Origin: Clostridia bacterium
Lineage (GTDB): Bacteria > Bacillota > Clostridia > Christensenellales > Aristaeellaceae
Assembly (NCBI GenBank): GCA_017543905.1
Contig: JAFYFC010000055.1
Location: forward strand, 1 to 64,000
Reading direction: 5' to 3'
Length of the DNA: 64,000 bases
The position numbers and the translations under genes are program-made. Shown here piece by piece: positions 32,655-37,462 of the stretch (within the stretch, counting starts at the first letter, position 1; each line of letters begins with the position of its first letter). The notes beneath the pieces are model-generated. The model searched no databases. It was not told the origin of the DNA and worked only from the letters and a program-made list of their open reading frames with translations.

Positions 32655-32696
32655 TATAATTTATGTGAAATTTAGTTAGAATGTCAGGTGAGACAC

Positions 32697-33260
32697 TTGG
32701 AGATAAATCAGCAGACTCTGATAAAAAAAGCCGCAAGAGGCGACAGCGCAGCCTTTGAAGCGCTGCTTGCCGGGCATGAAAAAATGATGTACGCGATAGC
32801 CCTGCGTATGACCCGCAACGCAGAGGACGCGAAGGACTGTTTGCAGGACGCAATGCTGCGTATATACAAAGCGCTGCCTTCTTTCCGCGGAGAGTCCACT
32901 TTTTCCACATGGGTATACAGGGTAGTCACAAACACCTGCCTCGATTCTCATCGCAGGAAAAAGGTTCGCAGGTCCGAATCGCTTGACGCGCTGAATGAAG
33001 CGGGCTGGAACGCCCCTGATACAGCCAAAGGGCCGGAGGAGACCGCTGAAAACAGCGGGCTCAGGAGTATTTTATCCGTATCTCTGAACAAGCTTCCTGT
33101 CGAAATAAGATCTGCCGTAGTTCTCAGGGACGTACAGGGATTCAGCTATGAAGAAATATCGGATATATTACAGATCAATATCGGAACAGTTAAAAGCCGC
33201 ATCAGCCGAGGACGCGAAAAACTGCGCGAAATGCTGGCTCCATATATGGAACTGAATTGA
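32697..33260 (+). CDS. ECF-type RNA polymerase sigma factor
   Basis: A 187-residue sigma-70 family ECF factor. Region 2 (about 8-75) has the QDAMLRIYKALPSFRGES and FSTWVYRVV signatures. Region 4 (about 120-180) has LPVEIRSAVVLRD, GFSYEEIS and GTVKSRISRGREKLRE. The TTG at 32697 is chosen because AGGTGA lies 5 nt upstream; a GTG at 32688 would add three residues but has a poor ribosome site. The downstream membrane protein is the probable anti-sigma factor. Target genes cannot be assigned. Confidence 0.93.
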   Translation: MEINQQTLIKKAARGDSAAFEALLAGHEKMMYAIALRMTRNAEDAKDCLQDAMLRIYKALPSFRGESTFSTWVYRVVTNTCLDSHRRKKVRRSESLDALNEAGWNAPDTAKGPEETAENSGLRSILSVSLNKLPVEIRSAVVLRDVQGFSYEEISDILQINIGTVKSRISRGREKLREMLAPYMELN

Positions 33261-33295
33261 TGATCGTGCGTCTAAGTGCTGACGGAGGAATGAGT

Positions 33296-34198
33296 ATGGG
33301 AAACAATCAGAATGCATTGAGCGACAAAGAGCTGCATTTGCTGCTTAAAGGGTTGGACGATAAAATAGAAGTGCCGCGCGACGCAGCTGAAGCGTGGAGG
33401 AAAGCTATACGCAAACAGCAAAAACGGGACGCAGCACTCCGCAGCTACAGACGCTGGTGCGAGCTTGCGGCAGGATTGCTGCTGACGATCGGATTGGGGT
33501 TGTATTTCGGGCGGGATATACTTAAGTGGAACAAGCAGCCCGTACAACCAACTGAAGCGATCTCCGCCGGTCAGGGCAGCGATCTGGGGTCTTCAAATGC
33601 TCTGACTGAATCTGCTGCCGCCTCATTATACGACTTCACAGGCGCCGTGCCCGGAGAAGCGATATATGATGCGGACAGAGCAGCTGTGCTTTACTATGCG
33701 GCAGACGATTCATATGCGCTGAACGACGATTTTGACGAAGTATTCGCAGAAGAGAGCGCATATGACCAAGGCTATGAAATACTTTCGGCGCAGGCTGTAA
33801 TTTTGACAGCAAATACCGAAGCTGCCGTCGCACAGCTTGAAGCTGTAATGCGGGATTACGGCGCGTATACTGAACAAAATATTCAAACCGGCAACGGTAC
33901 GCAGCTTACCGTAAGAGTAAGTCCGGAGGATTTTGAAGCGCTGCTTGCAGAAATCGAAAACGCATTCAACATCGAGACTGAAGCTAAAACCGAGGACGCC
34001 GAAAGCAGACTGCAAAGGCTGAAGGACGAGCTCGATACGCTGTATACAACGCGCGTGAATGCAGAAGCCTCCGTAATGGCTCTCACGGATGAAATCAACA
34101 AAATCGACGACAAGATAAACGAAAAAGAAACCGAATTGGCCGAATTGTACAATCGCATCAGCAGTGCGGCCGTTCAGATTACGATAACTGCAGAATAG
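33296..34198 (+). CDS. Membrane-anchored DUF4349 protein, probable anti-sigma factor
   Basis: A 300-residue protein. A cytoplasmic N-terminal ~55 residues (LSDKELHLLLKGLDD) precede one transmembrane helix (about 57-77, LAAGLLLTIGLGLYFG). An extracytoplasmic domain follows, ending in a DUF4349 region with LTVRVSPEDFEALL, a coiled coil (about 238-285) and VQITITAE. The arrangement next to an ECF sigma suggests it binds the sigma factor inside the cell and senses something outside. No zinc-binding HX3CX2C motif is present. The ATG at 33296 has GGAGG 7 nt upstream; upstream starts at 33260 and 33290 fit less well. Confidence 0.82.
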   Translation: MGNNQNALSDKELHLLLKGLDDKIEVPRDAAEAWRKAIRKQQKRDAALRSYRRWCELAAGLLLTIGLGLYFGRDILKWNKQPVQPTEAISAGQGSDLGSSNALTESAAASLYDFTGAVPGEAIYDADRAAVLYYAADDSYALNDDFDEVFAEESAYDQGYEILSAQAVILTANTEAAVAQLEAVMRDYGAYTEQNIQTGNGTQLTVRVSPEDFEALLAEIENAFNIETEAKTEDAESRLQRLKDELDTLYTTRVNAEASVMALTDEINKIDDKINEKETELAELYNRISSAAVQITITAE

Positions 34199-34412: not shown

Positions 34413-34483
34413 TTTGTAATGTGCTTCGCTTATATCGCTTATGCGACGATATTCTTTTGTCAAGGTGCGATTATTATGTAACT
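34413..34483 (+). repeat. Left copy of a 71-bp direct repeat flanking the RHS cassette
   Basis: Aligned without gaps to 37392-37462, this copy differs at 5 of 71 positions. The 42-bp core 34435-34476 is identical. The core contains a small inverted repeat, TCGC-TTAT-GCGA. The offset between copies is 2979 bp. Confidence 0.93.
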
Positions 34484-34574: not shown

Positions 34575-35108
34575 CTAAGATTGAATTTCTTTTACTGGGC
34601 GAATAAGTTCACTATTCATAAGATCTTCAATGTGTATTCTCATAGTCTTGATACCATTAACGATACTATTTGTACAATAAGTAAGTTTGACTTCTGCATT
34701 ATACAGATTCAATGAACATGTTATCATAAAGGAACTCTCTGTCCAATCATCCCTTCCCACCTTATGAAATATGTCGTCATTGCTGCCTTTAACGACATTT
34801 ATCCCGACATGCCACTTACTACTATATGATTCTTGACTCACTACCTTAGGACCAAATCTGATTTCAATAAGTGGATTACCTACTAATACCATGTCATGGT
34901 ACACTATATTGTTATACTTATATCCGTATTTACACAACACATCAAAATCATCTATTACACAATAATCTTTTGAAAACCTCTCTCCACTTCTATTTTCTAT
35001 TGCTCTTTCTTTCCAAGTGAAGCCATTCTGTGTAAAACACATTACTAAAACTATTAATATTATGGCGAGAATGGCTATTCCAAGAATAATAAGCCTCTTT
35101 ACGTTCAT
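34575..35108 (-). CDS. Membrane-anchored hypothetical protein in the RHS cassette
   Basis: A 177-residue protein with an N-terminal transmembrane helix (about 5-26, Ile/Leu-rich) and an extracytoplasmic beta-rich domain. AGGTGA precedes the ATG. Base composition is clearly more AT-rich than the flanking core genes, as for the toxin tip. No family is recognised. By position, downstream of an RHS tip on the same strand, it could be an immunity or accessory protein; it could also be a passenger gene. Confidence 0.6.
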   Translation of the reverse strand: MNVKRLIILGIAILAIILIVLVMCFTQNGFTWKERAIENRSGERFSKDYCVIDDFDVLCKYGYKYNNIVYHDMVLVGNPLIEIRFGPKVVSQESYSSKWHVGINVVKGSNDDIFHKVGRDDWTESSFMITCSLNLYNAEVKLTYCTNSIVNGIKTMRIHIEDLMNSELIRPVKEIQS

Positions 35109-35124
35109 AGCATTTCACCTTTTT

Positions 35125-35280
35125 TCACGATTTATCATGCGTTATGTAAAACTCTCTAAGATTTATAGGCCCTTTGGGGTGGCCATGCTCGCTTTTATAA
35201 TAAGAAGAGAGCACATTGTTTATCTTTTCGAGCTTTGTGCGAGGATGGTTTGCCGCGCGCTTATGCCTCCTTTTTCTCTT
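35125..35280 (-). pseudogene. Orphan C-terminal coding relic, possibly an older toxin tip
   Basis: On the minus strand a frame ending at TGA 35125-35127 reads through about 50 codons of natural-looking protein, including KLEKINNVLSSYYKSEHGH and GPINLREFYITHDKS. It has no ATG, GTG or TTG start and no ribosome site, and its upstream end runs into the 3' end of the 159-residue gene. This fits the tail of a gene whose 5' part was lost. The family is not recognised. Confidence 0.4.
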
Positions 35281-35315
35281 AAAGAATATTACTACATTCA
35301 GATTACAATTCCATA

Positions 35316-35795
35316 CTAATAATACAGAAGATTCTCGATGAATTTTTCTATGAAATTGGAGGGTACTTTCCTTCTGATCGCTTTCATATTGTATTTATCA
35401 TACCGTTGCTCCTTATAGCTTAAACGTGTATTGTCAAAAGTATCATATCGAACATCAAGAACTATACTATTGATGCACACTGTATAATCATCAATCCAAT
35501 ATGCCTCGATGTTCTCCTCAAATTGTGCTCGGAATATAGCTTTTTTATAATCTCCTTGTATCGATTGAACCTCTGCCCCCACTGAAAATGGACTCGTTGC
35601 TCCTCCACTCGTATCATAAGCTACAAGAACGAATGATTGGTTGGGAGAAACCGTATTAAAAAGCACCTGGTTCTTAAGCATCCCTATATGGTACTCATGT
35701 ATATACCATAATGAATGAATAGAAAGTATAACAATTATCCCTAAAACAATAGCAGCTGTAGTTAAAACAATTACCCTTTTTGTCCCATGTAGCAT
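35316..35795 (-). CDS. Membrane-anchored small protein, candidate immunity protein of the RHS toxin
   Basis: A 159-residue protein with an N-terminal transmembrane helix (about 8-30) and a soluble domain with SFVLVAYDTSGGATSPFSVG, reminiscent of DUF5412 proteins. Its ATG lies 1 nt after the TAG of the RHS toxin gene, and the ribosome site GAGGAG sits inside the RHS 3' end. Translation is therefore coupled, the classic arrangement for an RHS/polymorphic toxin immunity gene. Immunity function is inferred from position only. Codon use is AT-rich like the toxin tip. Confidence 0.65.
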   Translation of the reverse strand: MLHGTKRVIVLTTAAIVLGIIVILSIHSLWYIHEYHIGMLKNQVLFNTVSPNQSFVLVAYDTSGGATSPFSVGAEVQSIQGDYKKAIFRAQFEENIEAYWIDDYTVCINSIVLDVRYDTFDNTRLSYKEQRYDKYNMKAIRRKVPSNFIEKFIENLLYY

Positions 35796-35796
35796 T

Positions 35797-37374
35797 CTAA
35801 TGCAGCTCCTCTTCGTTGGCCAATTTCCAGCTAATCCACTGGAAAAGGTATGAATCTAGTTTTTCCTTAGCTAAGTATTGACTAATGGAATTTCCGTTTT
35901 TAACTGCATTTGTATACATACCTAATCTATAGCCATATTCAATAGCATAGTAATCTACCGGATCATCAAAACCAGACATTATATATTTCCATCTGGATGT
36001 GCGTGAATAGATTTGATAGAGCCCAGCTCCAGCTTGGGCAAAAGTACTAGAGAATAAGGCAGTGCTTAAGAAGCCAAATTGGATATTTCCGATTTCATCT
36101 CGTCTTAATGGAATGCCACAGAAAGAGTATAAAGCATCACTTTTCAAATTCCAATTTGAGTCGTTTTTTATGTCCCACTCACCATTAGTCTTGACTTTAT
36201 CAATAAAGAAATCAATACTGTCTATATAAGTATGAGTCCTACGGTACTTAACAAGAGCTTCGTAGTTTTTAACCATTTCATTCATTAACCTGAGGCTAAT
36301 ATCTTCTGCATTACGTTCAGCTATTATGTCATGAGCTTGCTTCGCTATGCTATCATTTTTGCTGGATTTTCCATTTTTATCACTTTTCATTACTACTGAA
36401 TTCTCACAGTAGCAATAAAGGTTTCCAGAAATGTTTTCATCCGAATTGATAAACCTAAGCAAGAAACTTGAATATAATCTACTGCTGAGATAATAAGACT
36501 CTATCTCCACATCCCATACATACCCTCTGTATCTGAACGGGTTCAGTTCACCCAATGAAGTTGTCAAGGTGCCTGTGACGCTTATCGGCTTTCCCCACGC
36601 ATCATAGCTGTATTCTACAACAAGGTTTCCGCTGCTGTCAAGTATGCCTATGATGTCGCCCTGCAGGTTATGGGCATAACTGTACAGAGTACCGTTGAAG
36701 TCGACCAATGTCACCCTGCCTTGTGTGTCATAATAGAAATGCAGCCTGTCAGTTGTCGTTGTAGGCGAAGCTTCGGCAGTAACTGTTGTTTTTATCAGTT
36801 CTGCAACATTCTTACCATTCAGAATATACTCGGTCGTTTCAGTCGCGTCGCCGATTGTTACGACCTTCTTCGTCCTGAGTCCGGCATGGTTATAGGTAAA
36901 CTCCATTGTAATCGTGTCGTTCCCCTCGATCTTGCTCATGCTCTTGAGCTGCCGTCCGGCCTGCCAGGTGTATGTCCAAGTGCCGTCGTTTTCCGGGGTG
37001 CCTATTTCGTCGTACACTATGGTATTCCCGTCGAACTTAGTGAGCTTATCTTTCCAGTCAGTATCATACTCATAAGCATAGGTCTTCACAGCAGTGCCTA
37101 CCGTTCCTGTGGTATAAGCATATACTGTTTTTCTAAGAATACTGCCGCCGCGATCATAAGCGTAAACCCATGTCGTTCCGTTGTCGCTTAACGCGCCTTC
37201 GTTGTGCGCAGTAGGATCGTTCGGGTCGTTGACTCTTGTAAGCTGTCCCAGCGCGTCATACTCGTAGGTAGTCGTAACACCGTTCCGCGTTTCACTGGTG
37301 ATGTTTCCACGGTTGTCATAGGTGTAAGAAAAGTTCAGCGCGTTGGTTCCGCTGCCCTGCGTTATGCTCTGCAC
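35797..37374 (-). CDS. RHS repeat-core fragment with C-terminal polymorphic toxin (type 44-like), 5' truncated
   Basis: The frame encodes about 525 residues. YD repeats such as YTYDNRGNI, YEYDALGQLT and FYYDTQGRVTLVDF (about 1-270) lead to an RHS core end with NPFRYRGYVWDVEIESYYLS, LLRFINSDE and NLYCYCENS (about 276-340). The AT-rich C-terminal tip (about 345-525) has GEWDIKN, GNIQFGFLSTALFS, QAGAGLYQ and SGFDDPVDYY, resembling polymorphic toxin type 44. RHS similarity starts at about 37391, at the edge of the right 71-bp repeat; further upstream the frame meets a stop at 37450-37452. There is no signal peptide or delivery domain, and the GTG at 37374 has no evident ribosome site. It is best read as an orphan or silent tip, with expression uncertain. 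Confidence 0.75.
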   Translation of the reverse strand: MQSITQGSGTNALNFSYTYDNRGNITSETRNGVTTTYEYDALGQLTRVNDPNDPTAHNEGALSDNGTTWVYAYDRGGSILRKTVYAYTTGTVGTAVKTYAYEYDTDWKDKLTKFDGNTIVYDEIGTPENDGTWTYTWQAGRQLKSMSKIEGNDTITMEFTYNHAGLRTKKVVTIGDATETTEYILNGKNVAELIKTTVTAEASPTTTTDRLHFYYDTQGRVTLVDFNGTLYSYAHNLQGDIIGILDSSGNLVVEYSYDAWGKPISVTGTLTTSLGELNPFRYRGYVWDVEIESYYLSSRLYSSFLLRFINSDENISGNLYCYCENSVVMKSDKNGKSSKNDSIAKQAHDIIAERNAEDISLRLMNEMVKNYEALVKYRRTHTYIDSIDFFIDKVKTNGEWDIKNDSNWNLKSDALYSFCGIPLRRDEIGNIQFGFLSTALFSSTFAQAGAGLYQIYSRTSRWKYIMSGFDDPVDYYAIEYGYRLGMYTNAVKNGNSISQYLAKEKLDSYLFQWISWKLANEEELH

Positions 37375-37391: not shown

Positions 37392-37462
37392 TTTGTAATG
37401 TGCTTCGCCAATGTCGCTTATGCGACGATATTCTTTTGTCAAGGTGCGATTATTACGTTACT
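37392..37462 (+). repeat. Right copy of the 71-bp direct repeat
   Basis: Matches 34413-34483 at 66 of 71 positions in the same orientation, with the 42-bp identical core at 37414-37455. It abuts the broken 5' end of the RHS fragment. Just beyond it, AAACGGGATTTCA (about 37475-37487) also has a counterpart near 34216-34228 beyond the left copy. Confidence 0.93.

Follow-up and report, generated by a model that had tools for sequence, protein, structure and literature searches.

An open reading frame immediately downstream of a truncated RHS gene encodes a 159-residue member of the Pfam family DUF5412 (PF17428), which we take, with a probability of roughly 0.8, to be the cognate immunity protein of the Ntox44 toxin domain (PF15607) at the tip of the RHS protein. 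From sequence comparisons, it would belong to a superfamily of membrane-anchored proteins whose outer domain blocks Ntox44, and Ntox44 itself would act extracytoplasmically. Both genes lie in the window, the 64,000-nucleotide stretch of Clostridia bacterium DNA that was analysed (contig JAFYFC010000055.1); their features are collected in Table 1.

Table 1. Features of the RHS tip/DUF5412 locus, in coordinates of the window.
Feature	Position	Strand	Basis or remark
5'-truncated RHS gene, 525 aa, GTG start; about 339 aa of RHS repeats/core, then the tip	35797..37374	-	blastp against a same-genus RHS protein
Ntox44 (PF15607) toxin domain; invariant residues of WDxK, GN...G and DDPxD intact	35923..36207	-	Pfam E 8.5e-13
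Shine-Dalgarno sequence AGGAG of the DUF5412 gene, within the toxin gene	35806..35810	-	10 nt before the ATG
DUF5412 (PF17428) ORF, 159 aa, ATG start; predicted membrane-anchored immunity protein	35316..35795	-	Pfam E 9.7e-20, residues 10-122
Predicted membrane-spanning helix at the N-terminus (about residues 8-30), basic end inside	35706..35774	-	sequence; AlphaFold2 helix 2-37
Loop Gly64-Gly65-Ala66-Thr67 between strands 55-61 and 71-78	35595..35606	-	alignment of 33 sequences
ORF of 177 aa with one N-terminal transmembrane helix, AT-rich like the tip and the DUF5412 gene; possible second immunity protein	34575..35108	-	no family
71-bp direct repeat, upstream border of the cassette	37392..37462	+	RHS homology ends just before the repeat
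71-bp direct repeat, downstream border of the cassette	34413..34483	+	93% identical to the 37392..37462 copy

A predicted membrane-anchored protein is encoded one base after the toxin gene

The DUF5412 gene is adjacent to and co-oriented with the RHS gene. A single base separates the RHS stop codon (TAG, 35799..35797) from the ATG at 35795, and the ribosome-binding site (35810..35806) lies inside the toxin gene. An earlier note on this DNA had pointed out both features and was right about them, except that the right-hand boundary it gave to the gene, 35810, marks where the Shine-Dalgarno sequence begins; the start codon lies at 35795. The encoded protein scores 71 bits against the DUF5412 profile (curated cut-off 25 bits), a family to which Pfam assigns no function and of which a literature search found no mention.

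The protein has one hydrophobic segment only, which is N-terminal and preceded by basic residues (..TKR..), and by the positive-inside rule this basic N-terminus favours a C-terminus on the outside. In the AlphaFold2 model (mean pLDDT 82.5) a helix spanning residues 2-37 leads into a confidently predicted beta domain with several short strands (residues 43-114), followed by a poorly predicted tail. Hydropathy, lipobox patterns and the model together give the layout of an extracytoplasmic, anchored immunity protein (an N-terminal transmembrane helix or lipobox and a domain outside), and the single helix and outward-facing domain that the earlier note had described are borne out by hydropathy and the model as a predicted topology. 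A structure search likened the beta domain to the blades found in propellers of the DPP4-like and isopeptidase types (with probabilities reaching 1.0, E about 0.03, TM below 0.4), a likeness that, going by the model, is one of shape only. The designed propeller Tako8, a sequence match from the PDB, was not accepted as a homologue, though it is consistent with the blade-like model. Across 33 sequences of the partner superfamily described below, the Gly-Ala-Thr loop is the most conserved feature, with the alanine and threonine each at 97% and Gly65 at 88%.

The toxin gene is truncated and lies between direct repeats

The first codon of the RHS gene aligns in blastp with residue 1581 of an RHS protein of at least 2119 residues from a same-genus genome (locus L217; 72.5% identity over 342 columns). 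Relative to this homologue about 1580 residues are missing, so that the gene lacks the N-terminal delivery region and long shell of a functional RHS toxin gene; it also lacks a secretion signal, and no convincing ribosome-binding site precedes its GTG at 37374. Homology to RHS stops at one of two 71-bp direct repeats that enclose the RHS fragment with its tip, the DUF5412 gene and the 177-residue ORF, and a third copy of the repeat lies beside an RHS remnant on another contig of the same genome (C39). The GC content of the tip and the immunity gene is about 35% vs about 49% for the RHS core, and the unit of tip and immunity gene looks like a cassette moved by recombination. Elsewhere in this genome (contig C27; L216 5130-5411) a 282-bp fragment is 97% identical to 35222-35503, which includes the 3' end of the immunity gene, and is, judging by this identity, the remnant of a recent duplication. 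The cassette adjoins, at 32688-34198 on the forward strand, genes for an ECF-type sigma factor and then a DUF4349 membrane protein that probably acts as its anti-sigma factor. Two same-genus loci (L217 5641-12000 and L218 4236-5429) have a related RHS core and different tips, one without assignment and one weakly metallopeptidase-like and likewise 5'-truncated.

Because the cassette is 5'-truncated and flanked by direct repeats, activity of the RHS toxin at this locus is doubtful, and the toxin gene may be silent. Whether the locus is dead altogether, with the RHS fragment untranslated and the pair inactive, is evenly balanced: to the lost N-terminus, the lack of a convincing ribosome-binding site and the homology cut at the repeat is added that promoter-like matches are not clearly above chance, but neither frame is interrupted and the toxin has kept its conserved residues and the immunity protein its motif, so that any decay is at most recent. 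A dead locus would in any case be compatible with an immunity role, as it concerns the activity of the two proteins and not their identity.

Ntox44 genes are mostly accompanied by partners with predicted anchors

The RHS tip scores 49 bits against the Ntox44 profile (cut-off 24), and its motif residues D66/K68, G94/N95/G99 and D135/D139 are conserved. Although a structure model of the tip is fairly confident (pLDDT 84, pTM 0.77), a Foldseek search with this model against the PDB and BFVD gave no match at E <= 0.001, and we therefore claim no enzyme class for Ntox44.

A collection scan with an Ntox44 alignment returned 80 genome loci, mostly from Proteobacteria, and 25 loci from the viral collection, and the partner analysis covers the 97 Ntox44 loci that have a downstream ORF. 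This ORF carries an N-terminal transmembrane helix or a lipobox at 93 of the 97 loci on a first count and at 92 on a recount, with lipobox-like motifs at 21, compared with 95 of 405 ORFs of similar length at the same loci (23%; Fisher p 6e-41, an optimistic value since the Ntox44 loci are related by descent). The same-locus ORFs serve as the sole background because the cytosolic-DNase control family, Ntox15, yielded too few loci (no match in 143 genomes and a single viral locus). The commonest overlap between toxin and partner is exactly -23 nt (39 loci). The membrane anchor that the earlier note had proposed is thus both predicted in the protein itself and recurrent among Ntox44 partners.

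When these partners are aligned with the DUF5412 protein, the Ala-Thr pair is near-invariant and stands in a Gly-Ala-Thr context, and an hhalign comparison between a profile of Bacillota DUF5412 proteins and 31 partners outside DUF5412 links the two groups (97.8%, E 8e-13). By these comparisons DUF5412 and the Proteobacteria-type partners are one superfamily, of which the protein described here is a divergent representative (mostly 9-23% identity to other partners). On the toxin side, the Ntox44 proteins of Bacillota that are not RHS proteins mostly have Sec-signal-like N-termini, and a sig_peptide annotation is present on one phage copy. Since the partners have a single transmembrane helix or lipobox with the domain outside, and since these Ntox44 proteins appear to be exported, we infer that Ntox44 acts outside the cytoplasm, in line with the view that the location of an immunity protein usually marks the site of effector action (PMC12669606). 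The earlier suggestion that the toxin may act at or outside the membrane gains good support in this way.

Annotation points elsewhere, to a cytosolic RNase whose passage through the membrane, rather than its activity, would be stopped by the anchored partner. Later papers do call Ntox44 an RNase or nuclease (PMC12165300, PMC6079546, PMC9635880, PMC9134191), but the passages found in them are annotation or citation of earlier work and report no assay. Lipobox partners would moreover leave a toxin delivered to the cytosol by a type VI secretion system (T6SS) unopposed, and solo Ntox44 genes adjoining T6SS genes have the same type of anchored partner, so we regard a cytosolic RNase as unlikely. 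The earlier note had found a membrane anchor unexpected for a cytosolic hydrolase-type tip; there is no genuine conflict, because the tip is Ntox44, for which the passages found offer an RNase label and no demonstrated activity, and because that label is opposed by the topology of the immunity proteins.

Some Ntox44 genes have other surroundings. Different membrane proteins, including 4-TM proteins, adjoin Ntox44 at L035, L195 and L196; at the last two (L195 1132-1920, L196 1381-2148) divergent secreted Ntox44-like proteins, seemingly without WDxK, are followed by a 4-TM protein, perhaps an immunity protein of a different type. No partner was found at L043 or in Paenibacillus larvae phages (L051 2106-2693, L052 2815-3402), where the Ntox44 protein is secreted, with a signal peptide, and has no evident adjoining immunity gene.

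DUF5412 recurs beside Ntox44 in Bacillota

In a phylum sample of 398 genomes, DUF5412 is present in 26, Ntox44 in 12 and both in 8 (Fisher p 4e-8; counted by genus, 4/8, p 5e-4), and a DUF5412 gene is adjacent at 10 of the 14 Ntox44 places. Among 250 Bacilli genomes, DUF5412 lies within about 1 kb at 7 of 12 Ntox44 places, directly downstream at three, upstream at one and divergently oriented at three. The annotated order on the Metabacillus plasmid pB218 is Ntox44 then DUF5412, and one Bacillota RHS-Ntox44 gene overlaps its DUF5412-like partner by 4 nt. When Ntox44 is the starting point, the co-occurrence with the same tip that the earlier note had proposed to look for is therefore positive, and the gene has the hallmarks of polymorphic-toxin immunity, adjacent to and co-oriented with a toxin gene and found with the same toxin across genomes. 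Together with the homologous anchored partners, this comparative evidence gives good support to the immunity role that the note had proposed.

The picture differs from the DUF5412 side, where 70 of 77 places in Bacilli and 21 of 31 in the 398-genome sample are not beside Ntox44, and where the neighbourhoods of these orphans are mixed in content. The earlier note had counted homologues found mostly away from toxin genes as evidence against immunity; this is the case for DUF5412 genes in Bacilli relative to Ntox44, but adjacency holds from the toxin side. Orphan immunity genes are expected in polymorphic toxin systems. Given that most DUF5412 genes in Bacilli are away from Ntox44, the family reaches beyond cognate immunity, and its orphan members may have roles other than immunity. 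One such orphan (L185), near SUKH and DUF2750 genes, possibly belongs to an immunity array.

These data also bear on the second transmembrane protein of the cassette (35108..34575), which would be the real immunity protein if the DUF5412 gene were a passenger or, like many of its relatives, an orphan. This protein too has a single transmembrane helix, and its AT-rich gene lies within the repeat-bounded unit; it belongs to no Pfam family, no homologue was found in plasmids, and sequence comparison shows it to be no relative of DUF5412. Its ORF is 207 bp further on, however, whereas the DUF5412 gene is one base from the toxin gene and has counterparts next to Ntox44 in further genera, which makes this alternative slightly less probable still than a cytosolic RNase. 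Least probable of all is that DUF5412 does something unrelated at the membrane and stands beside Ntox44 by coincidence or hitch-hiking, as the many orphans in varied surroundings might suggest, for the two genes are neighbours in several genera and in three different arrangements, homologous anchored partners occur throughout Proteobacteria, and one orphan adjoins a gene of SUKH, a known immunity family, and a DUF2750 gene.

Discussion

We propose that the DUF5412 protein (35795..35316) would serve as cognate immunity to the Ntox44 tip encoded just upstream. The superfamily comprises DUF5412 in Bacillota and unnamed relatives elsewhere; its members would be anchored in the cytoplasmic membrane through a single N-terminal helix or, in some relatives, a lipid, and would expose the small propeller-blade-like beta domain outside. 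This outer domain, probably through the conserved Gly-Ala-Thr loop, would bind and block Ntox44 arriving from outside, and the toxin would act in the extracytoplasmic space, on the cell wall, a lipid precursor or the membrane, and not in the cytosol. In the host genome the pair is an orphan cassette. Since the RHS gene has lost its 5' part and direct repeats flank the unit, this cassette is probably in storage or in decay, and its immunity gene may still be protective.

On these comparisons, DUF5412 is best read as the Bacillota branch of the anchored Ntox44 immunity family, which proposes a function for a Pfam family without an assigned one and supplies an immunity family for a common toxin domain with none entered before. 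A wider picture, to which we give an even chance, is that Ntox44, a toxin of the cell envelope whose fold the PDB does not yet contain, is common to T6SS, RHS and Sec-secreted systems and is held in check in Gram-positives and Gram-negatives by one ancient anchored, propeller-blade-like immunity superfamily that includes DUF5412. Action outside the cytoplasm is a prediction that contradicts the RNase label in many annotations, including those of T6SS loci in well-studied genera; if it is true, the counting of Ntox44 among RNases would need correction in effector catalogues and metagenome surveys.

Orphan rhs-CT/immunity cassettes of RHS systems consist of a truncated RHS core, an AT-rich tip and an immunity gene, and the locus described here has the same layout, and a related RHS core carries other tips within the genus, but the locus differs in being bounded by 71-bp direct repeats. 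Its tip shares the all-alpha character and the signature DxK, GNxxxG, DxxxD published for Ntox44 (Zhang et al., 2012; PMC3482391); the polymorphic toxin table of that study enters no immunity family for Ntox44, and the later RNase label is at odds with the anchored partners found here. The protein next to it is a member of DUF5412, a Pfam entry without an assigned function. No link was found that would make Ssp4/Sip4 a characterised Ntox44 pair, nor anything to identify Ssp4 as an Ntox44 protein. Sip4, the immunity protein to the periplasm-acting T6SS toxin Ssp4, is an integral membrane protein with four transmembrane helices (PMC12669606), whereas the DUF5412 protein has one, but its location tells the site of the toxin, as we argue for DUF5412 and Ntox44.
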